A stretch of DNA of 64,000 nt, from NCBI GenBank assembly GCA_016214955.1, contig JACRMN010000017.1:1-64000 (forward strand), in the 5' to 3' direction. Under the pieces are notes generated by a model. That model was not told where the DNA came from. It saw nothing but the letters and a program-made list of their open reading frames with translations, and did not search any database. Positions 11,507 to 26,788 of the stretch are shown in pieces. This stretch comes from Deltaproteobacteria bacterium (lineage in GTDB: Bacteria; Myxococcota; Myxococcia; Myxococcales; Anaeromyxobacteraceae). The translations under genes and the position numbers were made by a program. The stretch's first letter is position 1. Each line of letters starts with the position of its first letter.

Positions 11507-12310
11507 TCAGCGGGGCGAGGCCAGGCGCGGGCCCGAGACCGGCTCGGCGCCGGCGGGTGCGGCGCAGGCGGCGCAGCCGGAGAGGAGCGTGTTCTTCCCG
11601 TCGAGCTGGAGCTCCAGCGGGCCGTCGCGCGGCGCGAGCCAGACGGCCCAGCAGGTCTCGCCACCGCCGGGCCCGGTGGCGCGGGCCACGGCGCCGACGC
11701 GGCCGGGCGGCAGGCGGACCGTGAAGCGGCCGTCGGGACCGGCGCGCGCCGAGGCCGACGCCGCGGGCAGGCCGGAGAGGAGGAAGGCGCAGGAGCGGAA
11801 GCGGCCCGCCGCCTCCTCCAGCGCCGCCAGCTCCCGCTCCTTCTCCTCGGCCCTCCGCGCCGCGGTGCGGGCCGCGGCGTGGGCCGCCCGCTTCTCCTTC
11901 TGGAAGCGCTCCTCGGCGGCTCGCATCTCCTCGCGGTTGCGCGGCCGCACCCGCAGCGCCAGGCGGCGGCCCAGGTCGGTGTCGCCGAGGGCGCGCCAGC
12001 GGGCGTCGGCCCGGTCCTGCTCGGCGAGGAGCCGCGCCCGCTCGGCGGCCAGCGCCTCGCGCCCGGCCCGGCCCTGGGCGCGCCCGGCCTCGGCCTCGGC
12101 GGCGCGCCGCGCCAGGAACGGGGCCAGCGTCGCCTCCGGCAGCACGAGCACCTCGCCGGCCGCCGGCTGGTCGGGGCCGCCGCGCCCGGGGAGCAGGAGC
12201 CGGCCCGAGAGCGAGCGCTCCGGCGAGGCCGGAGGCGCCTCGGCCCGCTGGCAGGCGGCCGCGGCGAGGAGCAGCGCGGCCGCCCGGAGCGGCATGGCGG
12301 ACAGGCGCAT
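11507..12310 (-). CDS. Putative lipoprotein with a charged coiled-coil
   Basis: The 267-residue protein has a signal peptide ending LLLAAAACQ, a plausible lipobox with Cys20 (weak because of Ala at -3). Residues 60-170 are an Ala/Arg/Glu-rich coiled-coil, followed by a possible small beta domain (DGRFTVRLPPGRV, typical of carboxypeptidase-regulatory-like folds) and a CAAC pair near the C terminus. Its ATG overlaps the stop of the subtilase gene (TGATG at 12308-12312), so they are co-translated. Function unknown. Confidence 0.6.
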   Translation of the reverse strand: MRLSAMPLRAAALLLAAAACQRAEAPPASPERSLSGRLLLPGRGGPDQPAAGEVLVLPEATLAPFLARRAAEAEAGRAQGRAGREALAAERARLLAEQDRADARWRALGDTDLGRRLALRVRPRNREEMRAAEERFQKEKRAAHAAARTAARRAEEKERELAALEEAAGRFRSCAFLLSGLPAASASARAGPDGRFTVRLPPGRVGAVARATGPGGGETCWAVWLAPRDGPLELQLDGKNTLLSGCAACAAPAGAEPVSGPRLASPR

Positions 12311-14499
12311 CAGCGCACCGTGACCCGCACGGTGGCGGCGGCGGAGACGGCGCCCAGGTCGTCGCGCACCGTGTAGCGGAAGGAGTCGGTCCCGCTGAAG
12401 CGCCTCGCCGGCGTGTAGAGCACGGTGCCGTCGCTGCGCGCCGTGGCCTTACCGTACCGGGGCGCGGTGACGATGGTCACCGTCGCCGGCGCGACGGTGC
12501 CGTCGACGTCGGTGTCGTTGGCCACCACCCGGATGACCACCGAGGTGTTGCGCGCCGTCGAGGCCACGTCATCGGCGGCCACCGGCGGGTCGTTCACCGG
12601 CGCCACGGTGAGGGTGACGGTGGCGGCGGCGCTGGCGGCCAGGCCGTTCCAGGCCTGGTAGCTGAAGGCGTCGCTGCTGTTCCAGTTGGCGGCGGGCCGG
12701 TAGGTGAAGCTGCCGTCGGCGGAGAGGGTGAGGGTGCCGTGGGCCGGGCCGGAGACCAGCACGGCGCCGAGGCTGCGGCCCGCCGGGTCGCTGTCGTTGG
12801 CCAGCACGCCCGGCGCCGCCACCGCCAGTGCGGAGTCCTCGGCACCGGCGTAGGCGTCGGGTGCGGCGCTCGGGGGCGCAGGCGGAGGGGTGACGGTGAG
12901 GGTGGCGGTGGCCGCGGCGCTCAGGGCCGAGCCGTTGCTGGCCTGGTAGGTGAAGGCGTCGGCGCCGGCGAAGCCGGCGTCGGGCGTGTAGCTGAAGCCG
13001 CCGTCGGGCTGGAGGGACAGCAGGCCGTGGGCCGTGCCGGAGACCAGCACGGCCGAGAGCGGCAGACCGGCGGGGTCGCCGTCGTTGGCGAGGACGCCGG
13101 GCGCGGCGAAGGCTGCCGAGGTGTCTCCCGGCAGCGAGAAGGCGTCGTCGGCGGCGGTGGGCGGGGCCGGCGGCGGCGGGGCGGCGAGGCGGTCGCGTGC
13201 CGCCAGGGCGTCGAGGAAGCCGTAGCCGGAGGCGGTGTCGGGGCCGGCGGTGCCGAGGTCGCGCGCCGAGCCGGTGAGCGCCGCGCGCAGGTCGGCCACC
13301 GTGGCGGCGGGGAAGGCGCTGCGCAGGAGCGCCAGCGCCCCGGCCACGTGGGGCGCGGCGATGGAGGTTCCGGAGACAGCCGTGTAGAGGCCGAAGCGGT
13401 CGGCGGTGTTCACGTACAGCCCCGGCGCCACCACCGTGGGGTAGACGCCGCCTCCGCAGGCCGAGGGGCCGCGGCTCGAGTCGCCGGCGACGAGGCCGGT
13501 GTTGCTGGCCGAGCCGACGGCGATGGACTCGGGGTAGTTGGCCGGGCTCACGCTGGTGCTGCCGCCGGGGCCGAAGTTGCCGGCCGCGAACACCACCGGG
13601 ATCCCGGCGGCGGCGAGCGCCCGCACGTCGGACTGGAACTCCAGGTTGCAGCCGGGGCTGCCGAAGGCGAAGGAGCCGTTCACCACGTCGGGCGCGTCGT
13701 CGGTGGCCGGGTCGCCGTCGGGGTCGAGGAGCCACTGGAAGGCGAGGTGGATGGCGGTGGCGGTGGCGCTCCCGGAGTCGTTCCAGATGCGGGCCGCCAT
13801 CCAGGTGGCGTCGGGCGCCACCCCGATGGCGGTGCCCCCGGCGTCGCCGCCCACCAGCACGCCCAGCGTCCAGGTGCCGTGGCCGGTGAGGTCCACCGGC
13901 GAGGCATGCTGGCCGTAGGGATCGAACCAGCCGCCAGAGGGACCCCGCCAGCGGCCCGAGAGGTCCGGGTGGGTGGCGTCGGCGCCGCTGTCGAGGGTGG
14001 CCACCACCACCCCCTGGCCGGTGACGCCGTCGGCCCACAGGCCGGGCGCGTGAACCGCGGTGAGGTTGGGCTCGGGAGGGCCGGTGGGCGCGGCGGTGGG
14101 GACCACGTCGATCTCGTCGGGGGTGACGGCTGCCACGTCGGGGTGGCGCGCCAGCTCGGCGATCACCTCGGGGGTGGCCGTCACCGAGAGGCCGTTGATG
14201 ACCCAGAGCGGCCGGGCCGCGCCGGCCCGCCCCTCTCCGCGGCGGGCCTCGAGGAGCCGGAGCACCGCCCCCTGGCGCCGCCCGGCGTGCTCCCGCAGCG
14301 CGCGCACCGCCTCGCGGCGGCGCGTGCCGCGGGGGAGGCCGGCGAGGCGCGAGAGGTCGGCCCCGTCGCGCAGGTGGACCACCACCGGCAGCGCGTGGTC
14401 CGGCTGGCGGGCCGCGGCGGCGGCCACCTCCGGCGAGAGGGCGGCCGGCGCGGCGGCGGTCAGGCCGGGGAGCAGGGCGAGGAGCAGGGCGGTGCGCAT
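12310..14499 (-). CDS. Secreted subtilisin-like serine protease with three Ig-like repeats
   Basis: A 729-residue S8 peptidase. Order: signal peptide (1-16), inhibitor-I9-like propeptide (about 20-130), catalytic domain with Asp170 (VVATLDSGAD), His207 (GHGTW), oxyanion Asn308 (FAAGNFG) and Ser379 (SGTSIAAPHVAG), a proline hinge near 440, and three Ig/cadherin-like repeats, each opening with a D-D or D-A-Y start and containing VLANDGDPAG, VLANDSDPAG or VVANDTDVDG. The triad is complete, so the enzyme should be active. GGAGG precedes the ATG. It may process the neighbouring secreted proteins; that is inference. Confidence 0.9.
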   Translation of the reverse strand: MRTALLLALLPGLTAAAPAALSPEVAAAAARQPDHALPVVVHLRDGADLSRLAGLPRGTRRREAVRALREHAGRRQGAVLRLLEARRGEGRAGAARPLWVINGLSVTATPEVIAELARHPDVAAVTPDEIDVVPTAAPTGPPEPNLTAVHAPGLWADGVTGQGVVVATLDSGADATHPDLSGRWRGPSGGWFDPYGQHASPVDLTGHGTWTLGVLVGGDAGGTAIGVAPDATWMAARIWNDSGSATATAIHLAFQWLLDPDGDPATDDAPDVVNGSFAFGSPGCNLEFQSDVRALAAAGIPVVFAAGNFGPGGSTSVSPANYPESIAVGSASNTGLVAGDSSRGPSACGGGVYPTVVAPGLYVNTADRFGLYTAVSGTSIAAPHVAGALALLRSAFPAATVADLRAALTGSARDLGTAGPDTASGYGFLDALAARDRLAAPPPPAPPTAADDAFSLPGDTSAAFAAPGVLANDGDPAGLPLSAVLVSGTAHGLLSLQPDGGFSYTPDAGFAGADAFTYQASNGSALSAAATATLTVTPPPAPPSAAPDAYAGAEDSALAVAAPGVLANDSDPAGRSLGAVLVSGPAHGTLTLSADGSFTYRPAANWNSSDAFSYQAWNGLAASAAATVTLTVAPVNDPPVAADDVASTARNTSVVIRVVANDTDVDGTVAPATVTIVTAPRYGKATARSDGTVLYTPARRFSGTDSFRYTVRDDLGAVSAAATVRVTVR

Positions 14500-14518: not shown

Positions 14519-14965
14519 TCACCGTACGGCGATGGGCCCGGCCCGCACGGCGCCGAAGGTCACCGAGACCTGGCCGCCGGGGCGGACCGCGCCGCGGACG
14601 TTGGGGTAGAGGACGAAGCAGGGCGCGTCCTTCTGCAGGAGGACGCTGCGCTGGGCGCCGTGGTGCGGCGCCTCCAGCGCGCGGCCGCCGCGCCCGGTGA
14701 GGAGGCCGGGCGCCTTCCCGCCCTCCAGCAGGTGCCTGGCCTTCTGCGGATCGCGCACCACGAACCGCAGATCGACCATCCCCCCGCCGCCGACGACGCC
14801 CACGCGGGTGATGGAGATGCCGAAGCGGTCCAGGAGCTCGCCGGGCGACAGCGAGCGCTCGCCGCCGGCGCGGGCCCCCAGGGCCGGCGAGGCGAGGAGC
14901 AAGCAGAGGAGCGCAGCTGCCGTGCGGGGTACGCGGCGCGTCGTCGGGCAGGTGGTCGGTCGCAT
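14519..14965 (-). CDS. Small secreted protein of unknown function
   Basis: This 148-residue protein has a signal peptide (basic start, then AAALLCLLLASPALGA) and a mature part with a hydrophobic strand pattern (ISITRVGVVGGGGMVDLRFVVRD; APCFVLYPN; QVSVTFGAV). No family recognised. It lies between the strong hairpin after the multicopper-oxidase cluster and the subtilase gene (19-bp gap), so it probably shares transcription with the protease and may be its substrate or inhibitor, which is only inference. Confidence 0.6.
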   Translation of the reverse strand: MRPTTCPTTRRVPRTAAALLCLLLASPALGARAGGERSLSPGELLDRFGISITRVGVVGGGGMVDLRFVVRDPQKARHLLEGGKAPGLLTGRGGRALEAPHHGAQRSVLLQKDAPCFVLYPNVRGAVRPGGQVSVTFGAVRAGPIAVR

Positions 14966-14989: not shown

Positions 14990-15048
14990 GAGGGAGCGCC
15001 GGAGAGCCGTTGGAGGGTGGCCGGCTCTCCGGCGGAGGGTGCTCCCTC
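14990..15048 (-). terminator. Strong two-step hairpin ending the multicopper-oxidase operon
   Basis: Two nested perfect inverted repeats: outer arms GAGGGAGC (14990-14997) and GCTCCCTC (15041-15048), inner arms 14998-15008 and 15023-15033 (11 bp). The outer arm overlaps the stop of the 988-residue cupredoxin gene. The structure is very stable but is not followed by a T-run, so it could be an intrinsic-like terminator, an attenuator or an mRNA 3'-end stabiliser between the oxidase cluster and the protease genes. Confidence 0.55.
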
Positions 15049-18013
15049 AAGGTCCGATGGTGGAGCGCCTGGTGGAGACGAAGGCGTCCAGGTAGACGGC
15101 GCCGGTGGCGGCGCCCAGGCCGCCCAGACCGGCGGCCAGGCCGAGGCGCACCGTCTCCAGCCGCCGGTTGCCGGTGGCCGGGTTGGCGGTGACCGTGGAC
15201 TGGCTGCCGGAGGGGCCGGCGGTGAGCTGGAGCCGGGCCGGAGCGCCGGCGTTGGCCGCCCGCCACGCGATCTCGACGGGGCTGGGCACCGCGGAGGGGA
15301 TGGTGACCCAGCCGGTGCTGGTCATGGTCCCGGCGTTGGAGAGCGCCCCGGCGCGCACCTGGTAGGTGAAGCCGGCCCCGGCGCTGCCCTGCCGCCGGTA
15401 CTGCACCTGGAGGATGGTCGCGCCGGCGGCGTCGAGCCCGGCGAGCAGCGTGGGCGTGGCGGTGTTGTTGGGGAGGGAGGAGCTGGGGTTGAACCAGAAC
15501 CGGGCGTGGTAGCTCGTCTCCTGCACCGGTGTGGTGTCGGTGAGGTACCGCGCGGCGGTGCCGCCGCCGAAGGCGGCGCGCAGCACCTGGGCACCCGCCG
15601 AGGCGGGGAAGCCGCCGGGCGTGGCGACCACCGAGAGGCTGGCGCCGGTGGCCGAGGCCCAGCCCCAGGGGATGGCGCCCGACTCGAAGCTGTTGGCGAA
15701 GAGGGCGTCGGGCAGCACCACGTCGACGGTGGTGGAGAGGGTGCCGCTCCAGTTGCCGGCGCCGTCGCGAACCCGGGCCGTCAGGGTGTGGGTGCCGGCG
15801 GTCCAGGAGGTGAAGTCCACCGTGGCCGTCACCGGGCCGGTGCCGGTCATGGCCCGGCCGTTGCCCGCCCCGGGGTCGGCACCCTCGAACCACTCGCCGC
15901 CGGCGATGCCGGTGGCGGTGTCGCTGCCGGTGGCGGTGAGGGTGAAGGCGGTGTTGCTGCTGAAGGGCGCGGTGGTGGTGTTGGTGGGGCTGGGCGAGGC
16001 GGTGAGCGTGGCGATGGCGGGCGCGGTCCTGTCCACCAGCAGCGTGGCGCTCGCCACCGGGCCCCAGTTGCCGGCGGCGTCGCGGCCGTGGACCCAGACG
16101 GCGTGGTTGCCCTCGGCGAGCTGGATCACCGTGGAGAGCGGGATGTCGCCGAAGGCGTTCTCGCCCGGCTGATTGAAGGCGCCGTCCACCGGGATGAGGC
16201 CGAAGCCGGAGCCGTCGGCACCGGGGGTGTCCAGGAAGGCCTCGCCGCCGGCCACGGTGGACTCGCCATCGGAGAGCGCGGCGGTGACCCGCACGGCGGC
16301 CGTGGAGGAGTTCACGCCCACCTTGCCGTTGGAGGGGTTGGGCGAGAGGGCCACCAGGCTGGTGGTGGGGCCGGCGCGGTCCAGGAGCAGGCTGGCGGTG
16401 GCGGGGAGGCCCCAGTTGCCGAGGGCGTCCTGGCTGCGGACCGCCACGGCGTGCGGGCCCGATGCCAGGGTGGCCAGGGTGGCCGCCGGGATGGTCCCGG
16501 TGATGCTGGCCACCGGCCCCTGGTTGGCGGGGGTGACGGCGAGCGGCTGTGGCGCGCCGCCGTCGACGGTGAGCTCGGCCGCGGCGATGGCGCCTCCGCC
16601 GCTGCTCCGGTCGTCAGCGGTGGCGGAGAGGGCCACGTCGGCGGTGCCGTTGCTCACCCAGGGTGCGAGCGCCAGCCCGGTGGTGACCGGGCCGCCGCCG
16701 TCGATCACCAGCACCGCGAAGGTGGCCGAGCCCCAGCCGCTGCCGTCGAGGGCGCGCACGTAGACGTTGTGGTTGCCGGAGGCCAGGGTCGAGAGGGTCG
16801 AGGCCGGCAGGGTGGCCGAGGCGGTGCTGCCGCTCAGCGCCATGGGCGTGCCGGTGCCGCCCGCGCCCAGGGCGTCGAGGAAGTACTCGGCCGCGGAGAC
16901 CGAGCCGGTGCCGGCGGCGACGGTGGCGCCGAGCGCCACGGCCGCGGTGCCGGTGCTGGGGTTGGGGGTGAGCGTGACGTTGCTCACCACCGGGCCGGCG
17001 GCGGGCGGCGGCGCGGTGCCCACCGCGAGGAAGGTGAGCATGCCGCCGAAGCCGGCGGCGGTGCCGAGGCCGCTGGTGTTCACCAGCATCAGGCTCGCGT
17101 CGTAGAGCGGGTACCGGGCTCCGGCGGGCGCCGTGGGCGGCACCGCCACCAGGGCGTCGAGCGTCTGGCCCGGGGCCACCGTCTCGGCCACGGCGCGGCG
17201 GGGGATGGAGAGCGGGTTGCCGTCCTGCGCCACCAGCGTCTGGTCGAGCCCGAGCAGCGCCATGGAGTGGTGCTGCAGGCCGGCGTTGAGGTAGCGGAGT
17301 AGGGTGGCGGTGCCCGGCGCCGCCGGGACGAGGTCGGTGGCCGGGAAGGCCTTGCCGTTGATGAGCCGCCAGCGTGGGTTGAAGTTGCGCAGGTCGAAGG
17401 TGGCCGGGCCGGCGGCGAAGGCCGGATCGATCTCGGAGAGCACCAGCAGCGCCTCGTCGGCGAAGGCGGTGGCCGGGTCGTCGTAGGCCTGTCCGGCGGC
17501 GGCCGGGCGGACCACCAGGGCGCCGAAGAGCCCCATGGCGGCCTGGTGCTGCGCGGCGCGCACCAGCGCCGGGTCGGCGGTGTCGTGGACCAGCGGGCCC
17601 GCCTGGTAGAGGTAGGTCCCGGGGCGCAGCGCCGGCAGCACGTAGGTGGCGGTGCCGGAGGTGGGCGCGGCCTCGGGGCCCCCCGCCGGCTGGTCCTGGC
17701 CGGCGAAGAGCAGCGTGGTCGGCTCGCCCAGGGTGTTGTGCAGGTTCACCGTCAGCGTATCGCCGGCGGTGGCGACGAGGGTGGGGCCGGGCAGGCCGGC
17801 CGCGCCGGTCTCGGTGTCGGAGTAGCCCCACACCGGGATGGCCGCGGCGGAGCCGGGGACGGAGACCGTGCCGGTCTTGGCCCACAGGTCGCAGACGACG
17901 GAGCCGGGGGACACGGTGCAGGCGGCCGGGGTGGGAAGGGCCGGGTGCGCCGCCAGCGGGGCGGCGAGCAGGAGGAGGCCGGCCGGGAGCAAGCGTCGGA
18001 GGTTCTGGGTCAT
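15047..18013 (-). CDS. Cupredoxin-type (multicopper-oxidase-like) protein with Ig-like repeats
   Basis: The 988-residue secreted protein has a signal peptide (to LAAHP), two cupredoxin-like domains (about 30-330) that align with the downstream half of an MCO, and then repeated bacterial Ig-like units of about 100 residues with the recurrent NPS-x-G or SNGT-x-DVAL opening and a VRALDGSGWG, VRSQDALGNWG, VHGRDAAGNWG or VRDGAGNWSG close. The C terminus (from about 770) resembles a lectin or galactose-binding-like jelly roll. The copper motifs are degraded: LQHHSMALLGL replaces HxHG, and no HCH motif remains. It may be a structural or surface-binding partner rather than an enzyme. Confidence 0.72.
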   Translation of the reverse strand: MTQNLRRLLPAGLLLLAAPLAAHPALPTPAACTVSPGSVVCDLWAKTGTVSVPGSAAAIPVWGYSDTETGAAGLPGPTLVATAGDTLTVNLHNTLGEPTTLLFAGQDQPAGGPEAAPTSGTATYVLPALRPGTYLYQAGPLVHDTADPALVRAAQHQAAMGLFGALVVRPAAAGQAYDDPATAFADEALLVLSEIDPAFAAGPATFDLRNFNPRWRLINGKAFPATDLVPAAPGTATLLRYLNAGLQHHSMALLGLDQTLVAQDGNPLSIPRRAVAETVAPGQTLDALVAVPPTAPAGARYPLYDASLMLVNTSGLGTAAGFGGMLTFLAVGTAPPPAAGPVVSNVTLTPNPSTGTAAVALGATVAAGTGSVSAAEYFLDALGAGGTGTPMALSGSTASATLPASTLSTLASGNHNVYVRALDGSGWGSATFAVLVIDGGGPVTTGLALAPWVSNGTADVALSATADDRSSGGGAIAAAELTVDGGAPQPLAVTPANQGPVASITGTIPAATLATLASGPHAVAVRSQDALGNWGLPATASLLLDRAGPTTSLVALSPNPSNGKVGVNSSTAAVRVTAALSDGESTVAGGEAFLDTPGADGSGFGLIPVDGAFNQPGENAFGDIPLSTVIQLAEGNHAVWVHGRDAAGNWGPVASATLLVDRTAPAIATLTASPSPTNTTTAPFSSNTAFTLTATGSDTATGIAGGEWFEGADPGAGNGRAMTGTGPVTATVDFTSWTAGTHTLTARVRDGAGNWSGTLSTTVDVVLPDALFANSFESGAIPWGWASATGASLSVVATPGGFPASAGAQVLRAAFGGGTAARYLTDTTPVQETSYHARFWFNPSSSLPNNTATPTLLAGLDAAGATILQVQYRRQGSAGAGFTYQVRAGALSNAGTMTSTGWVTIPSAVPSPVEIAWRAANAGAPARLQLTAGPSGSQSTVTANPATGNRRLETVRLGLAAGLGGLGAATGAVYLDAFVSTRRSTIGP

Positions 18014-18025
18014 GGCGGTCTCCGG

Positions 18026-19300
18026 CTAGGGGCAGGCGTTGGGGAGCGGAGGGTCGACCCGGACGTAGGTGATGGGGCCGGCCATGGTCATTCCCCAGGC
18101 GGTGATCTGGAAGAGGGCGTGGTTGTGCGAGATGACGTAGTACTCGCCGCACTGGTTGAGGGTGTTGGCGTTGGGCAGGAGTGGGCCGAGCACGCCGAGG
18201 TACGGGCTGCCGCTGTACCAGGGGCCGAACTGCAGGTTGGCGGGGTCGGGCACCGTCACCGGCACCGGGTTGGCCTCCGAGTAGGCCTCGGCGTCGTACC
18301 AGCGGAAGAGGACGTCCCAGGTCTGGCCGGGGCCGACGTTGACGGCGAACTTCTCGAAGGAGAGGTCCTGCCCGGTGGCGCTCTCCAGCGCCCGGCCGTC
18401 GCGGCCGATCACCAGGCCGTTGTTGCCGTGGGGGTGGAAGGGGAAGCTCTCCGATCCCACGTTGAGGTAGCGGATGGACCCGGGCCAGGGGTGGCCGGTG
18501 GGGTCGAAGGGGTGGATGCGGGCCAGGGCGCCGTAGGGCTGGCTGGGTAGCCAGTCCACGAAGTTGTCGGCCACGGTGTCGGGGAAGCCCCGCCCGTTCA
18601 GCATCCAGTAGCGCGGGTGGTAGTTGTTCATGTTGAAGGTCCGGCCGGCCTCGACCGCCTGGTGGAGGTAGGGGTCGATCTCCGAGAGCAGCACCATGAA
18701 CTCCTCACCAGGCGTGAAGGTGCTGTCGGCGCGGGCGTTCATCCGCGCCGGGTCGGCGGGCCGGACCACCAGGGCGCCGAAGAGGCCGAGCCTGACCTGC
18801 TTGTGGGGCGCGGTCCCGCTCTCGTAGACGAAGGTGCCGGGACGGCCGGCGACGAAGGAGTAGGTGACGCTGCCCCCCGGCGGCGCGGTGTCGGTGAGCG
18901 AGGTGAGCGTGGCCCCGCTCCACTGCGGCTGCGCCGGGGACCCGTTGGCCGTCACCCCCTCCTGGCCCGGGAACATGATGGAGACCGGCTCGGGCAGGAG
19001 GTTCTTCAGCACCACGGTGACCGTGTCACCCTGGGTGACGCAGAGCACCGGCCCCGGGTGCTGGAAGGGGCCGTCGCCCGCGGCGTAGCCCCACATGAAC
19101 ATGGTGTTGGCGTCGGGCAGGGTGATGTAGCCGGGCCGCGCCGTGAGGTTGAAGGTGGGCGCGCCGGCGGCGCCGGTGGTGCAGACCAGGCCCACCGCCT
19201 GCGCCGCCGCGGGCGCGGGGGCGGCCAGGAGGGCGAGGGCGGCCAGCGGGGCGGCGAGGCCAGAGAGGCGCCGGGCGTGAGGCGAGGAAAGGGTGCGCAT
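18026..19300 (-). CDS. Multicopper-oxidase-type protein, carries HPHG and HNH motifs
   Basis: 424 residues with a Sec-type signal (to about residue 34) and two cupredoxin-like domains. Domain 1 has lost copper ligands (EPVSIMFPGQEG, GTFVYESGTAPHK). Domain 2 keeps FHPHGNNG (His289, His291) and YYVISHNHALFQITAWGM (His392, His394), the pairs expected for half of a type 2/type 3 copper centre. The type 1 His that normally precedes the HPHG motif is Phe. It lies 15 bp downstream of the Tat-exported MCO, which holds the other two His pairs, so the two may form one active enzyme. GGAGGAG precedes the ATG. Confidence 0.78.
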   Translation of the reverse strand: MRTLSSPHARRLSGLAAPLAALALLAAPAPAAAQAVGLVCTTGAAGAPTFNLTARPGYITLPDANTMFMWGYAAGDGPFQHPGPVLCVTQGDTVTVVLKNLLPEPVSIMFPGQEGVTANGSPAQPQWSGATLTSLTDTAPPGGSVTYSFVAGRPGTFVYESGTAPHKQVRLGLFGALVVRPADPARMNARADSTFTPGEEFMVLLSEIDPYLHQAVEAGRTFNMNNYHPRYWMLNGRGFPDTVADNFVDWLPSQPYGALARIHPFDPTGHPWPGSIRYLNVGSESFPFHPHGNNGLVIGRDGRALESATGQDLSFEKFAVNVGPGQTWDVLFRWYDAEAYSEANPVPVTVPDPANLQFGPWYSGSPYLGVLGPLLPNANTLNQCGEYYVISHNHALFQITAWGMTMAGPITYVRVDPPLPNACP

Positions 19301-19315
19301 GGGCTCCTCCGCGGC

Positions 19316-20749
19316 CTACAGGTCGAACTGCTCGTTGGGGATGGTCTGCGGCGGCACCGTGCCCGCCGGGTAGACGCGGACCTCGGTCATCTGCCCGCCG
19401 AAGCCGCCGGCCAGGTTGGCCGAGCGCTTCAGGGAACGGTTGAAGAGCAGGTAGGTGGTGGGCGCGGTGACCGGGGGCGCGGTGAAGATGGCGTCGATGC
19501 TCTCGCCGGCGCCGAAGTTGACCGTCTGGGCCTCGTAGCCGGTGGGTGTCCCGTCGCGCCCCTTCATCGGGGTGGCGTCCTTGCCCACCACCCGCATCCG
19601 CAGGCCGGCCAGGGTCATGGAGGCCTCGCGGAATCCCAGGTTGGCGAAGCGCAGCAGCACCCGCTCGCCGGCGTTGCACTGCACCAGCGCCGAGAGCGGC
19701 TGGTAGCGGAGGTGGTCCCAGGCGCCGGCCGGCTCGCCGGCCCGCGGCTGCGGCGGGAGGAGGTCGCCGCCCGGGTCGGTGACGGGGTGGAACGGGTCGA
19801 TGGAGCCGTTGGGCGCCAGCGTGTCGGGGTGGACCCGGCCGTTGAGGAGCGCGAAGTCGGGCCGGTAGTCGGACCACTCGGGGAGCTGGATGTGGGCGTC
19901 GCACCAGTGGGCCTCGGCCCACACCTCGGTGAGCATCATGGCGAACTCGCGGTCGTAGGCCGTCGAGCCGTCGAGGTCGTTGTAGGCGTAGCCCATGGGC
20001 GCGCCCGGGGCGGCGTTGCCGCCCAGCCGGGCCACCGGCACGGAGGGGCCGTTGCCGGTGAAGTTCTGCTTGGCCCTCACGAACACCGGGCCGGTCATGC
20101 CCATGTGCACGTGCTCCACGTCCTCGACGTGGCAGTGGAACATGTAGGTGCCGGGGTCGCGGGGCCGGTACACGTAGCGGAAGCGCCGCCCCACCGGCAC
20201 CGCCACCGAGCCGGTGGGCTCGCCGTCGAAGAAGGTGATGACGTTGCGGAAGCCGTGCCAGTGCACGGTGTGGGCGTCGGTCAGGTCCGGCCGCATCCCC
20301 AGCCCCAGGTTGGTGAGGTCGAGCCAGAACCCGTCGGTGATGCGGCGGCGCGTCAGCGGATCGGTGGCCGGGGTGCTGGGGTCGAACTCGTCGAGGTAGA
20401 AGAGCGGCGCGGTGTGCTGCGCCTTGAGCTTCTGGTCGGCCCGCTGGGCGTCGCCGAGCAGGGTGACGTTGCGGAAGCCGAAGATGTAGGTGGTGTACGG
20501 GGCCGGCGCGTAGCTGTCCGGGTGGAAGTAGGAGATGGGCGGTCCGGGGGGCAGGGACATCCAGCCGTCGGTGCCGGCGAAGAAGAGGTCGGGCGGGTCA
20601 CCGGGAGCCGCCAGCGCCACGCCGCTGGGCAGGAGCCGGCGGGCGAAGTCCGGCACCAGGCCGGTGCCGGCGGCGAGGGCCAGGGTCCCGCCCAGCCCCT
20701 TGAGGAAGCTGCGCCGGGCGAGGAGCCTGCGAGGAAGGTGCTTGCGCAT
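19316..20749 (-). CDS. Tat-exported multicopper oxidase
   Basis: 477 residues from the ATG at 20747-20749, chosen because AAGGAG lies 8 nt upstream; a GTG three codons earlier overlaps that site. The Tat signal RRSFLKG-x-GGTLALAAG is clear. Domain 1 carries HTVHWHGF (His163, His165) and MFHCHVEDVEHVHMGM (His205, Cys206, His207, His213, Met218), so it supplies a type 1 copper site and two His pairs of the trinuclear centre. The second domain lacks the usual HPxHLHG (it reads FREASMTLAGLRMRVVG). The Tat route suggests folding with copper before export. Confidence 0.85.
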   Translation of the reverse strand: MRKHLPRRLLARRSFLKGLGGTLALAAGTGLVPDFARRLLPSGVALAAPGDPPDLFFAGTDGWMSLPPGPPISYFHPDSYAPAPYTTYIFGFRNVTLLGDAQRADQKLKAQHTAPLFYLDEFDPSTPATDPLTRRRITDGFWLDLTNLGLGMRPDLTDAHTVHWHGFRNVITFFDGEPTGSVAVPVGRRFRYVYRPRDPGTYMFHCHVEDVEHVHMGMTGPVFVRAKQNFTGNGPSVPVARLGGNAAPGAPMGYAYNDLDGSTAYDREFAMMLTEVWAEAHWCDAHIQLPEWSDYRPDFALLNGRVHPDTLAPNGSIDPFHPVTDPGGDLLPPQPRAGEPAGAWDHLRYQPLSALVQCNAGERVLLRFANLGFREASMTLAGLRMRVVGKDATPMKGRDGTPTGYEAQTVNFGAGESIDAIFTAPPVTAPTTYLLFNRSLKRSANLAGGFGGQMTEVRVYPAGTVPPQTIPNEQFDL

Positions 20750-20791: not shown

Positions 20792-23700
20792 TCAGGGCAC
20801 GGTGCCGCCGGAGAAGTTGTCGGCGCGGCCGCCCGAGGGCAGGAACAGCCCGATGCGGCCCGGCCCCGCGGTGAAGGCCTCGGCTCCGGTGGTGGGCAGC
20901 TGGACGCTGCCGATCAGGGTGGTGGCGCCGGCGCTCGTCTGCCAGGCCCACAGGGTTCCGGCGGGATCGACGAGGGCGGTGAGCCGGTCGCCGGCCGCGA
21001 AGGTGGCGCCGAGCGTGCCCCGGGTGGAGTAGGTGACGCCGTAGTTGGTGGTGGTGGCCACCACCACGCCGGTGCCGGCCTGGTAGCGGACGCGGATGGC
21101 GCTGGCGTAGGTGCCGAGGAGGAGCGAGCCGCTCTGCTTGAGGTAGAGCGCGCCGCCGGAGAGGGCCGCGGCGTTGGAGAGGGTGAGCGCCGCGCCTTGC
21201 TTGGCGCCGAAGACCGGTCCGCCACCGGCGGCCCCGTTCCAGGCCGCGCCGCCGCCGCCGGAGCACAGCAGGCCGGCGAGGCCGGTGTTCACCAGGAAGG
21301 CCTGGTTGGCGTTGACCCGGGCGCAGGCCGCGCCGCCGATCACCGGCTGCTGCCAGTTGCCGCCCAGGCTGGTGGCGTTGGCGCGGTTGAAGGCGTCGAG
21401 GAGCGCCAGCGCCGGCAGGGCCGGCCCGCCGCCGCCGCCCGTGCCGGTGCCGATCTCGTCGGCGCCCATGTCGAACGCCGCCGGGCTGCCCTGCGGGCGC
21501 GGGTTGTCGTCCACGTCGATGGCGGGCGCGCTCACCGTCAGCGCCCCCACCGTCTTGCTGGCGGCGCCGGTGTTGTAGGCGGGCGAGGTGGTGCCGGAGA
21601 GGTGGTAGTTGCCCAGGAGCTCTGGCGGCAGCTCCACCGCCACCAGGATGGCGCCCAGGAAGGCGGGGTTGTTGCGCCAGGGCGCGAAGCTCACCGAGGT
21701 GTCGTAGGTGGAGACCACCTGGGGGTCGGCCGAGCCGTTGCTGGCGTCGGGCACGGTCCCGGTGGTCACCTGCAGGATGGAGCTGGTGGGCGAGAGGACG
21801 CCGCTGCCGTCGGCGGTCCCCATGTCCCAGTAGTTGATGGGGGTGGCGTCGCCGGCTGCGCCGATGCCCACCGAGCCGTTGCCGACCCGGCTCCCGGCCC
21901 GGTTGTCCCAGAAGACGTTGTTGAACAGCAGCGGGTTGGAGAAGGCACCGCCGCCCGCCGCCTGCAGCATGACGCTGTTGGCGCCGGTGGAGAGGCCGGC
22001 CGGCGCCGGGATGCCGGTGCTGGTGATGGCCGTGGCGGTGGTGATGTTCTTCATCACCGTGTTGTTGAAGAAGCGGACGTCGCTGGTGTCGTTGAGGCTG
22101 ACGCCGCCGCCCTCGTGGGTGGAGACGTTGTTGACGATGAAGTTGTTGTAGACGTTCATCGGGGCCCGGCCGGCCATGAGGAAGCGCAGGCCGCCGCCGT
22201 CGTCGTTGGCCAGGTTGGCCTGGATGAGGTTCTCGTGGATGGCCACCGGGCCCGAGCCGGGCGAGAGGGCCTGCGGATCGGCGGGCAGCTCGCCGGCGAT
22301 CATCACGCCGCCTGCCTCGTCGTAGGAGCGGTTGAAGTAGATGCGGTTGTGGTGGATGTCGCCGCCGGGGCTGAGGCCCACCGCCGAGAGGCCGCCGCCG
22401 TACTCGGCCGAGAAGTTGCCGCAGATGTCGTTGTGGGCCACCTCGTAGCCGTCGGAGCCGGCGAAGATGCCCACGCCGCCCGCCAGGTTGGTGCCGGCGT
22501 TGGCGAGGATGCGGTTCCAGGCGATCCGCACGCCGGTGTTGTGGTTGGCCACGCCGGGGTTCTGCAGGTTGGGCGTGCCCAGCCGGATGGCGCCGCCGTA
22601 GGCGCCACCGTTGTTCTGGAGGACGTTGTTGGCGATCTGCAGGTTGTCGATCCAGGCGTTGGCGAAGATGCCGCCGCCCTGGGTGATGACGTTGGGCGGC
22701 AGGCCGGTGGGGGTCCCGCCGATCTGGTTGATGTTGGCCGGGAAGCCCTGCTGGTCGCCGCCGCGGATGTCGAAGCCGTCGATGGCGGCGCGGTAGCGGC
22801 CGGTGGGGGTGCGGGCGTGGGCGGCGGCGTACTGGCCGGCGCTGCCCAGGAGGTAGATCACCTGGCCCTCGTAGACCGTCTGGTTGCCGTCCCAGGTGCC
22901 GAGCAGGGAGCCGACGCGGGTGCGCCAGGCGGTGGCCAGGTCGGTGTCGCCGCCGAAGGCGCTGCCGTCGAGGATCGAGCCGGGCACGTAGGTGGTGCCC
23001 TGGAAGCCGCCCGGCCCCACGCCCTGCAGCTTGAGCGGGAAGCTCACGACCAGGTTCTCGTAGTAGGCGCCGCGCGGGTTCACCCGCGGGTCGGGGTCGG
23101 GGACGCCGGGGAAGACCACCACCAGGTTGCCGCGCGGGTCGGCGGCGAAGGCCGCGGCGGCGTCGATGCCGGCCTGCACCGTGGTGTACACGGTGGCGGG
23201 CGAGGAGGCGGGCACTGGCGGCGGCGGGGGCCCGCCGGGCGCCTGCACCCGGAAGATGCGCGGGTTGTAGCCGCTGCCGACGACGTGCAGGGTGATGCCG
23301 TTCACCGAGCGCTTCCCGTTGGCCCCCGCGATCTGGAGCTGGTGCGGGCCCACGGCCACCGAGCCGGGGATGGCGAGCGTGATCTGCGTGTCGGTCCAGG
23401 AGGTGTAGGCCGAGGCCGCCAGGGCGGTCCCGTCCAGGGTCACCGTGCCGGTGCCGCGCGCGGCGCCGAAGCCGGTGCCGGTGATGGTGACGCTGCGGGT
23501 GGCGCCGGTGCCGTACACGTACGGGACCGAGACCCGCAGGAGCTGGGGCGTGGTGGCGTCGAGGGCGCAGGTCACCGGCGTCGCCAGCCCGCCGGGCAGC
23601 TGCACCGTCACGCCCACCTGCGTGGGCGCCAGGTCGGCCGGGACCAGCAGGCCGGGGAAGGCCTCGAACTCGGCGGAGATGGTGCGGAACTGCGGGTTGT

Positions 23701-26700
23701 AGTTGGGGTTGAGCCGCCCGGGGATGCCCGGGTCGTTGCCCACCATGCGGTAGAGGTTGGCGCAGACGCCCGAGGGGGTGGGGCAGCTGATGCGGTTGGT
23801 CGACGGCACCAGCACGTCGAAGAGGCCGTTGTAGTCCGACTCCACCGTGGTCACGAGCCGGTTGGCCCAGTCGTAGATGCCCACCGGGGCGAAGGGCACG
23901 CCGCCCTTCTCGCCGTAGAGCAGCGACTTCGGGTCGGCCGAGAAGTTGAGGTCGTCGACGATGAGGCCCCAGAAGCGGCCGGGGATGGGGACGTCGGTGA
24001 AGTAGTTGAAGGTGGGGGCGATGGAGCGCCCGTAGCTCACCCGCACCAGCTTGGTGCTGCAGAGCGGGCGCGCCTGTCCCTCGAACGGGCTGCCGCCGCC
24101 GCCGGCGAAGTCCGGGTTGTGGGTGGGCGTGGAGGCGGGCACCGAGACGCTGGCCGGCAGGCCGTTGACGTCGGCGAGCTCGATCGAGGTGGCCGGGTAG
24201 CCGTCGGCGCCCACGCCCTCGACGTCCACGATGTGCAGCGGGCCGGCGCAGTCGGGCGGCGGCACTTGCGGCACGTACTGGTCGCCGGTGAAGATGTTGA
24301 TGTCCTCCTCGCGGGTGACCTTGTAGAGCGGGCGGCCGGTGACCGGGTCGCTGGGCACCGTCACCTCCACCAGGTAGTCGCCCGAGGTCATGGCGGCGTG
24401 GGGCGCGCCGTCGGCGCAGACGGGGATGCCGTCGGCGTCGAGCACCGGCAGGCCGGTGGCGCCGTCGAGCTGGATGCCGGCCTGGCAGACGTCGCCGAAG
24501 CCGTAGTTGCCGTCGACGGTGGAGAAGCCGTTCTGGAACTGGACGCCCATGAGCGGGCCCTCGAGGCACTCGGCGCCGGCGTCGAGGGGCAGGACCTGCT
24601 CGTCCACGCCGTGGACCAGCGGGGTGCCGTTGACGTCGCGGGCCACGCAGCCGGTGGGCCGCTGCCAGGTCTCGGTGAGGTAGGCGTTGAGCAGCGTGCC
24701 CCTCTTGAAGGCGCCGCCGGCAGGCTCGAGCTCGTAGCGGCCGGTGGCGTCGCAGGCGTCGGCGGTCGTGCCACAGGGCACCGGCGCCCAGAGGTAGATC
24801 CAGAGGTTGGGGATGCCGGGCTGCCAGTCCTCCACCGCCGCGTAGCGCGGATCCAGCTCGTTGCGGGTGGTGTCGTAGCTGACCGTGCCCACGATTCCGC
24901 CGTGGCGCGGGTCGAGGCCGCCGCTCGTCCCCTGGGCGTCGTAGGCGTGCACGCCCCAGTCGAGCCGGCCGCCCAGGCCGATGATGGGCAGCACGCTCAC
25001 GTCCACACCGGCGCCCAGCAGCGTGGTCTCGGTGGGCTGGTTGTCGGCCTGCCAGGTGACGCCGGTGGTGTAGAAGGCGTCGGCGTAGGCCTCCACCACC
25101 AGCCACTGCGTCATGGGGTAGGCGTTCTTGAGGGAGTAGTAGCCGCTGGCGTCGGTGGTCACCAGGGTGGCGCCCCGGTCCATCACCGAGTTCTCCCGCT
25201 TCTTCATCACCACCGGGAAGCCGGCGATCCCTGGCTCGCCCGGATCCCTCTTGCCGTTGCGGTTCAGGTCGTTGAAGACGTAGCCGTCGATCTTGGTCCA
25301 CCAGCCGGCGAGCGGGAGGATGCCCAGGTCCACGGTCTCGCCGTTGGCGACGGTGACGTTGACCAGGTCGAGGAGGTAGTTGAGGTCCTGGTCGAACCAG
25401 GTGAGCGTGTAGCTGCCGTCCGGGACCTGGCCGATGGTGAAGCGGCCGTTCTGGTCGGCGCGGCCCACCCAGGCGAGCGTGTCGCCGGCGCCGAGGTCGG
25501 TGAGGGTCACCCAGGCGTACGGGACCGGCGCCTCCAGCCTGGCGCCGGCCAGGCCGCCCCAGATGCCGCCGGGGAGCGCCAGGCCGCCCTTGGCCGGGAC
25601 GTACACCTTGACGGACTCCACCACGCCGGTGATGGTGCCCGCGCCCGCGAAGCCGGCCGAGCGGCGCTCCTGCGGGACCTGGGTCGGCGGGAAGGTCTCG
25701 ACGTAGCCGAAGAAAGGCGTCGGGAAGGGCTCGCCGGCAACCACGAACTCGGTGTCGAGGCCGGTGGCGCCCTCCATCACCCAGGCGTCCCAGTCGAGGT
25801 TGCCCTCGAGCGTGGTGGTCTGGGCCCAGTGGGTGCCGCCGGGCGGGACGACGGAGAGGGCGTAGCGGTTGGGGCCGAGGTTGGGGATCTCGAGCTTGCC
25901 GTGGATGGCGGCGCCGGCAGGGACCGGCTGCCCGTTTTCCATGGTGAGGCCGGTGCCGTCGGCCGGGCAGCGGCCGCCGGGCCCGGAGGGGGCGACGGTG
26001 CCCACGTCCACGGCGCCGCTCACCACGTAGCACTTCGAGAGGCAGATGCCGCCGGTGCCGGCGATGGGCGTGGGCGAGTAGTCGGGCGGCACGAGGATGA
26101 CGTTGCCGAGGGCGTCGCGCTCGTACTCGGTGCAGAGCGGGTTGCCGAAGACGTCGGTGGTGACGAAGTCGATGTAGTCGGTGATGTGGCCCTGGAAGCC
26201 GGCCAGGCCGCGCTCGGCCGGCACGTCGGGCGCGCCGTTCACCGGCGAGATGTCCTCGAAGACCGCGGCCTGGATGGTGGCGGTGGGAAGCGGCGTGGGC
26301 TGCATCGGCACCGGCACCGCGATCGGCACGCCGCTCCCGGCGGGGACGGTGAAGTGGGCGCCGTCGAGCTTGTAGCCGTCGGCCCGCACCGAGACCAGGT
26401 ACCGGCCCGGCGGCAGCGTCAGCCCCAGCCCGGCGAAGTCGGCCTGGTCGCCCTGGGCGACGATGGGGCTCGAGCCCGGCACGCCGGCGATGGAGGTCCA
26501 GAGGCAGGAGGCGGGGTAGCCCGGCGAGCCGGGCGAGCAGCCATCGGCGGGGCTGCGCTGCGAGGTCACGCCGGTGTTGTCGAGGTTGATCACGTACTGG
26601 AAGGCCAGGATGGGCGTGTCCCTGGTCACGCCGGCACCGCCGAAGGCGCGGGGCTCGGTCCGGGCTGCTGCCGGGAGCACGCTCACCGGCGCCTGGGCAG

Positions 26701-26788
26701 CGGCGGGAGCGGCGGTCGCCAGTGCGGCCAGCAGGCAGAGGAGGTGCAGGGCCGGGTGGGAGGTGCGCGCGGAGGGGAGTGTCGTCAT
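20792..26788 (-). CDS. Giant secreted parallel beta-helix protein with SdrD-like and IPT domains
   Basis: About 1998 residues from the ATG at 26786-26788 (GAGGTAG upstream; signal peptide ends APAAAQA). The N-terminal 900 residues hold several carboxypeptidase-regulatory or SdrD B-type beta domains (for example GYVFNDLNRNGKRDPGEPGI with DASGYYSL). Next comes an IPT/TIG-like domain (SVTITGTGFGAARGTGTVTLDG). A parallel beta-helix follows, with many NN-x-x-x-NNGG-like rungs (about 1250-1650), and the C terminus resembles a concanavalin-type jelly roll (DAFNRANATSLGGNW). First gene of the multicopper-oxidase operon. It is probably an extracellular scaffold or adhesin; no catalytic site is recognised. 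Confidence 0.8.
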   Translation of the reverse strand: MTTLPSARTSHPALHLLCLLAALATAAPAAAQAPVSVLPAAARTEPRAFGGAGVTRDTPILAFQYVINLDNTGVTSQRSPADGCSPGSPGYPASCLWTSIAGVPGSSPIVAQGDQADFAGLGLTLPPGRYLVSVRADGYKLDGAHFTVPAGSGVPIAVPVPMQPTPLPTATIQAAVFEDISPVNGAPDVPAERGLAGFQGHITDYIDFVTTDVFGNPLCTEYERDALGNVILVPPDYSPTPIAGTGGICLSKCYVVSGAVDVGTVAPSGPGGRCPADGTGLTMENGQPVPAGAAIHGKLEIPNLGPNRYALSVVPPGGTHWAQTTTLEGNLDWDAWVMEGATGLDTEFVVAGEPFPTPFFGYVETFPPTQVPQERRSAGFAGAGTITGVVESVKVYVPAKGGLALPGGIWGGLAGARLEAPVPYAWVTLTDLGAGDTLAWVGRADQNGRFTIGQVPDGSYTLTWFDQDLNYLLDLVNVTVANGETVDLGILPLAGWWTKIDGYVFNDLNRNGKRDPGEPGIAGFPVVMKKRENSVMDRGATLVTTDASGYYSLKNAYPMTQWLVVEAYADAFYTTGVTWQADNQPTETTLLGAGVDVSVLPIIGLGGRLDWGVHAYDAQGTSGGLDPRHGGIVGTVSYDTTRNELDPRYAAVEDWQPGIPNLWIYLWAPVPCGTTADACDATGRYELEPAGGAFKRGTLLNAYLTETWQRPTGCVARDVNGTPLVHGVDEQVLPLDAGAECLEGPLMGVQFQNGFSTVDGNYGFGDVCQAGIQLDGATGLPVLDADGIPVCADGAPHAAMTSGDYLVEVTVPSDPVTGRPLYKVTREEDINIFTGDQYVPQVPPPDCAGPLHIVDVEGVGADGYPATSIELADVNGLPASVSVPASTPTHNPDFAGGGGSPFEGQARPLCSTKLVRVSYGRSIAPTFNYFTDVPIPGRFWGLIVDDLNFSADPKSLLYGEKGGVPFAPVGIYDWANRLVTTVESDYNGLFDVLVPSTNRISCPTPSGVCANLYRMVGNDPGIPGRLNPNYNPQFRTISAEFEAFPGLLVPADLAPTQVGVTVQLPGGLATPVTCALDATTPQLLRVSVPYVYGTGATRSVTITGTGFGAARGTGTVTLDGTALAASAYTSWTDTQITLAIPGSVAVGPHQLQIAGANGKRSVNGITLHVVGSGYNPRIFRVQAPGGPPPPPVPASSPATVYTTVQAGIDAAAAFAADPRGNLVVVFPGVPDPDPRVNPRGAYYENLVVSFPLKLQGVGPGGFQGTTYVPGSILDGSAFGGDTDLATAWRTRVGSLLGTWDGNQTVYEGQVIYLLGSAGQYAAAHARTPTGRYRAAIDGFDIRGGDQQGFPANINQIGGTPTGLPPNVITQGGGIFANAWIDNLQIANNVLQNNGGAYGGAIRLGTPNLQNPGVANHNTGVRIAWNRILANAGTNLAGGVGIFAGSDGYEVAHNDICGNFSAEYGGGLSAVGLSPGGDIHHNRIYFNRSYDEAGGVMIAGELPADPQALSPGSGPVAIHENLIQANLANDDGGGLRFLMAGRAPMNVYNNFIVNNVSTHEGGGVSLNDTSDVRFFNNTVMKNITTATAITSTGIPAPAGLSTGANSVMLQAAGGGAFSNPLLFNNVFWDNRAGSRVGNGSVGIGAAGDATPINYWDMGTADGSGVLSPTSSILQVTTGTVPDASNGSADPQVVSTYDTSVSFAPWRNNPAFLGAILVAVELPPELLGNYHLSGTTSPAYNTGAASKTVGALTVSAPAIDVDDNPRPQGSPAAFDMGADEIGTGTGGGGGPALPALALLDAFNRANATSLGGNWQQPVIGGAACARVNANQAFLVNTGLAGLLCSGGGGAAWNGAAGGGPVFGAKQGAALTLSNAAALSGGALYLKQSGSLLLGTYASAIRVRYQAGTGVVVATTTNYGVTYSTRGTLGATFAAGDRLTALVDPAGTLWAWQTSAGATTLIGSVQLPTTGAEAFTAGPGRIGLFLPSGGRADNFSGGTVP

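Follow-up and report, generated by a model that had tools for sequence, protein, structure and literature searches.

A multicopper oxidase ligand set divided between two adjacent bacterial genes and a proposed heterotrimeric oxidase with one trinuclear centre

Canonical multicopper oxidases carry all four of their H-x-H pairs in one chain, and to our knowledge the whole trinuclear ligand set of the characterised members is encoded in one gene. The window analysed here, a stretch of 64,000 nucleotides of contig JACRMN010000017.1 from a member of the Anaeromyxobacteraceae, raises the question of what two adjacent genes make when each of them encodes only half of these pairs. We refer to them as genes A and B, and to the neighbouring genes considered with them as C, D and E.

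The divided ligand set

The coordinates of the genes and of their ligand blocks are collected in Table 1. Both the Cu-oxidase_3 and the Cu-oxidase_2 domains were detected in A as well as in B, and the two genes are separated by a gap of 15 bp (19315-19301). The initial annotation had assigned to A a Tat signal, the motifs HWHG and HCH...H...M, a type 1 copper site and two His pairs, and to B the motifs HPHG and HNH only, at 15 bp from A; all of these were located as described. It had also claimed that the pairs missing from each chain are absent elsewhere in that chain, and this held when the two sequences were checked, since the only other H-x-H in A is H213-V-H215, which overlaps the type 1 His, while B has no type 1 site and no H-x-H pair beyond H289-P-H291 and H392-N-H394. 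The four pairs and the type 1 site are complete only when A and B are combined.

Table 1. Features of the operon and its surroundings in the window (all on the minus strand).
Feature	Position	Strand	Description
Gene A	19316..20749	-	477 aa, Tat-exported, two cupredoxin domains, the first with the type 1 Cu site and two H-x-H pairs
A, Tat motif	20699..20716	-	RRSFLK, residues 12-17
A, ligand block 1	20252..20272	-	H160-T-V-H163-W-H165-G; type 1 His, then H-x-H pair
A, ligand block 2	20096..20137	-	H205-C206-H207...H213...M218; H-x-H pair with type 1 Cys, His and Met
Gene B	18026..19300	-	424 aa, secreted, two cupredoxin domains, the second with the remaining two H-x-H pairs
B, ligand block 1	18425..18436	-	H289-P-H291-G
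B, ligand block 2	18119..18127	-	H392-N-H394
Gene C	15047..18013	-	two ligand-free cupredoxin-like domains, then Ig-like Big_13 and other domains
Gene D	20792..26788	-	giant secreted protein with CarboxypepD_reg, SdrD_B, TIG and beta-helix; upstream of A
Gene E	14519..14965	-	small secreted protein; downstream of C or C-D
Subtilase	12310..14499	-	Peptidase_S8 with cadherin/Ig-like repeats

A third gene, C, which was absent from the initial annotation, starts 12 bp after B. Its cupredoxin-like part (approximately residues 40-335, window 17896-17009) has a Cu-oxidase_3-type fold, and no H-x-H pair was found in C. The three genes are paralogues (119 bits for B and C, 56 bits for A and C, 50 bits for A and B), and with Cu-oxidase-family cupredoxin domains in each of them (Cu-oxidase_3 in A, B and C) they belong to the multicopper oxidase superfamily.

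Conservation, neighbourhood and origin of the operon

A scan of GTDB genomes with a profile of B gave 271 relatives, of which the best 80 were kept, and these come from Chloroflexota, Actinomycetota, Bacillota, Acidobacteriota, Planctomycetota, Nitrospirota, Myxococcota, Desulfobacterota-type and Pseudomonadota lineages. Together with loci from the window's own class, these best 80 of 271 form the locus set to which the counts below refer. One pattern runs throughout the locus set, namely A with H-x-HG, HCH and the type 1 set, then B, then C without pairs; in the homologues of B the first pair reads H-x-HG or a close variant and the second H-x-H. The ligand positions of A are invariant in the 84-85 sequences that cover them, with a single Leu in place of the axial Met, and those of B in 91-92 covered sequences. 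Since the 12 ligand positions are invariant wherever covered, among homologues of A and B that share about 35% identity, the division of the ligands is not due to chance.

The initial annotation had reasoned that homologues of either gene occurring alone in many genomes would count against a complex, and apart from one case at a contig edge none were found in the loci and genomes compared. A adjoins B in every locus of the set whose contig continues for 1.5 kb or more upstream (74/74, window included). Of 195 Myxococcota genomes, 13 have A and 14 have B, the one additional genome being accounted for by a contig end that cuts the locus; of 297 Desulfobacterota genomes, the identical 13 carry both. 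The search it had proposed for single-chain homologues fusing both halves found none among approximately 84 loci of the set. C was found in 75 of 77 loci; of the two others, one (L051) reflects a scoring exclusion, and for the second (L035) a fused C-D frame was seen in the same genome. The view of the initial annotation that the two proteins are exported by two routes stands for the window, where A has the Tat motif and B its own signal, but is not general: the Tat signal of A is confined to the Chloroflexota/Actinomycetota-like clade to which the window belongs, and most A homologues start with an ordinary Sec-type signal.

Gene D accompanies the operon in 78 loci of the set. It is fused to C in 15 loci and a separate frame in 56, while in three loci D and A form one open frame (L056:1221-8093, L077:2646-9884 and L099:759-9278). 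Because of these fusions D, A and C are taken to be physically linked, and judging from the fusions, often to C and sometimes to A, D probably anchors the enzyme outside the cell. E is found in about 60 loci and the subtilase is kept in about 30. No Pfam or NCBIfam match was found for E; a counterpart from another locus lies at L062:6103-6600. Other neighbours, named by sequence reading, are of the SCO type (19 loci), the NosL type (9 loci) and the c-type cytochrome type (15 loci).

Several further observations were made in these genomes. The megaplasmid of Cupriavidus metallidurans CH34 (L124, 12001-13359), a metal-resistant laboratory strain amenable to genetics, and Paraburkholderia caribensis (L125) carry A, B, E and a fused C-D gene, all of them unannotated in the plasmid-collection records. 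The genome that contains locus L050 (G148, Anaerolineae) holds at least three A-type genes, on contigs C7, C15 and C34, so some lineages have several copies of the system. Breaks into two frames, due to sequencing error or decay, were seen in A at L083:5073-6382 and in B at L119:9878-11153. In some Desulfobulbaceae-type genomes a canonical single-chain multicopper oxidase (816-838 aa, four H-x-H pairs) lies a few kb from the split operon (L080:16798-19314, L082:18301-20778 and L089:14963-17413).

As for the origin of the operon, a maximum-likelihood tree of B clusters the window with Chloroflexota (support 100/82 and 100/96), while the B genes of the window's own family form a separate group; since the window is placed with Chloroflexota and apart from its own family, the operon was likely gained by horizontal transfer. 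Misassignment of the contig is ruled out, because another window gene near the operon is 67-81% identical to relatives in the same family.

Predicted assembly and the proposed enzyme

When the profiles of A and B were compared with solved structures, the type-C two-domain oxidases 3g5w and 2zwn were among the best matches, and in pairwise alignment the ligand block of A falls on domain 1 and the pairs of B on domain 2 of these oxidases. The assembly was modeled with AlphaFold2 as one chain of 1199 residues, A+B+C, which is the in-frame read-through of the window with TAG translated as Gln; the alignment had 58 rows with all ligand columns aligned, and among the rows were natural read-throughs from other loci (A-B, B-C and A-B-C). 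The resulting model of this one artificial chain is confident (pLDDT 81.6, pTM 0.84), and it is chiefly the linkers that score low. An A+B chain run without an alignment did not fold (pLDDT 31, pTM 0.22), which at most indicates that the confidence of the A+B+C model depends on the alignment.

Foldseek matched the model to three-domain laccases (target TM 0.71-0.75 over approximately 740-760 columns), and the type-C two-domain oxidases were among its best fold matches (TM 0.74-0.75). Since the laccase superposition extends over more columns than A has residues (430), the third laccase domain must fall on B, and from the model we infer that domain 1 of A pairs with domain 2 of B, as laccase domains 1 and 3 do. 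The central proposal of the initial annotation, one oxidase whose trinuclear ligands come from two gene products, is supported by the conserved pairing of the genes, by the confident prediction and by this superposition spanning A into B. A sequential superposition of the full-length model on six-domain ceruloplasmin fails (TM approximately 0.2), and the order A-C-B, in a ring of the two-domain-oxidase kind with this pairing, would explain this.

We consider it quite likely that the product is a heterotrimer of A, B and C with a single trinuclear centre between domain 1 of A and domain 2 of B. Three different subunits probably make up the enzyme, and C is counted among them on the grounds of linkage, homology and the joint prediction. 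The closest competing explanation is a heteromeric oxidase of A and B alone, 1:1 or alternating, in which the two share one centre, with C outside the ring as an accessory protein, for example an anchor or a copper-loading factor. The ligands require A and B alone, and C has none and is often fused to the giant D, as would be expected of an anchor. However, C has retained two cupredoxin-like domains and its homology to B, it occupies the same place in the operon in nearly all loci, and all three chains were predicted as one confident assembly, so this explanation appears unlikely, although it deserves more credit than the two that follow.

It is very improbable that there is no common centre at all, with A acting alone as a type 1 copper electron carrier and B, by itself or together with C, binding copper or another ligand for storage or in a structural role. 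The two proteins could in principle act apart; against this, their invariant H-x-H pairs are exactly the complementary halves of one centre, their genes travel together throughout the loci and genomes compared, and the predicted assembly packs its domains across both chains as laccases do. Decay of a complete single-chain oxidase in this genome, by pseudogene formation or a frame break, could be suggested by the fact that A, B and C share one reading frame in the window with single stops between them, but it is refuted by the conservation of the split. The same split recurs in many phyla; A and B share a frame in just 21 of 82 loci, no more often than the one third that chance would give; each gene, B included, has its own ribosome-binding site and export signal; and the loci hold no fused A-B homologue.

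In the type-C two-domain family three identical subunits make a ring, and every trinuclear centre lies where domain 1 of one protomer meets domain 2 of the next. In the heterotrimer that we prefer, A, B and C would have derived by divergence from a type-C two-domain oxidase subunit, and the three positions of the ring would be taken by three different proteins in place of identical subunits, with A retaining the ligands of domain 1, B those of domain 2 and C none. Because the ligands are on domain 1 of A and domain 2 of B only, there would be one trinuclear centre per complex: a single A domain 1/B domain 2 interface would be able to form it, giving one catalytic unit with four coppers. Electrons would pass from the reductant to the type 1 copper of A and from there by the His-Cys-His route to the trinuclear centre held jointly with B, at which O2 would be reduced to water, and D would hold the enzyme outside the cell. 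We infer the stoichiometry, the copper content, the O2 reduction and the surface location of the enzyme from these data, and the most economical reading is that of a secreted, copper-loaded, O2-reducing enzyme anchored through D.

What the reductant may be is a guess; the axial Met ligand, the neighbouring copper chaperone and cytochrome genes, and the taxa that carry the operon (which include Geothermobacter, Rhodoferax ferrireducens, Thiobacillus, Desulfobulbaceae, Nitrospirota and Cupriavidus metallidurans CH34) lead us to guess at a metal ion, Fe(II), Mn(II) or Cu(I). With CH34 among the carriers, the function is approachable by genetics. On balance we also lean towards a broader view, in which these loci represent a widespread class of heterotrimeric multicopper oxidases, each an asymmetric ring of three two-domain paralogues with one catalytic centre common to two of them, displayed on a giant secreted protein. 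Domain-based annotation counts the A and B genes as odd or incomplete oxidases, and so misses such an enzyme.

Comparison with known copper oxidases

In the open-licence literature we found no description of a split, heteromeric or two-subunit multicopper oxidase, which is not proof of absence. The canonical single-chain arrangement of four pairs is not that of any protein of the operon, where A has two pairs, B two and C none. The copper nitrite reductase NirK is a sequence relative of A and B, and resembles the proposed complex in that two-domain chains assemble as a trimer with copper bound between protomers, but its type 2 site is mononuclear, it is without the H-x-H quartet and it is a homotrimer.

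Mnx (MnxEFG) of Bacillus is a multicopper oxidase that needs the products of neighbouring genes, as is proposed here. It has been described as the only characterised multicopper oxidase that requires accessory proteins, and it has a single oxidase chain (PMC5622069); MnxG alone is the multicopper oxidase, while MnxE and MnxF are without known homologues (PMC5622069). Unlike in Mnx, the trinuclear ligands of the present system sit on two chains, all three chains are cupredoxin-like paralogues, and none of them is an MnxG-like chain with complete ligands.

The two-domain oxidases are trimers in which the trinuclear site is common to two protomers, and in type C the type 1 copper is N-terminal (PMC13151041, PMC3918160). 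The type-C enzymes, such as the blue copper oxidase of Nitrosomonas europaea (3g5w) and a metagenomic two-domain laccase (2zwn), have two cupredoxin domains per chain like A, B and C, and the same ligand places, with the type 1 copper and two pairs in domain 1 and two pairs in domain 2. A has the two domains and the N-terminal type 1 copper of this type, while B and C have its fold alone, without a type 1 site. In contrast to the type-C homotrimers, where every chain has the full ligand set and there are three centres, no chain here has ligands in both of its domains, and the ligands are divided so as to make, as predicted, one centre.

Ceruloplasmin-type and other six-domain oxidases resemble the proposed A+B+C complex in having six cupredoxin domains and one trinuclear centre formed from two of them; they differ in being one polypeptide, whereas here there are three, probably in another ring order, as the failed sequential superposition suggests. 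If our proposal is true, the complex would correspond to a ceruloplasmin built from several genes and would represent a living intermediate between the homotrimeric two-domain and the single-chain six-domain oxidases, and the system offers a direct test of the passage from a symmetric homotrimer to an asymmetric single-centre enzyme such as ceruloplasmin.
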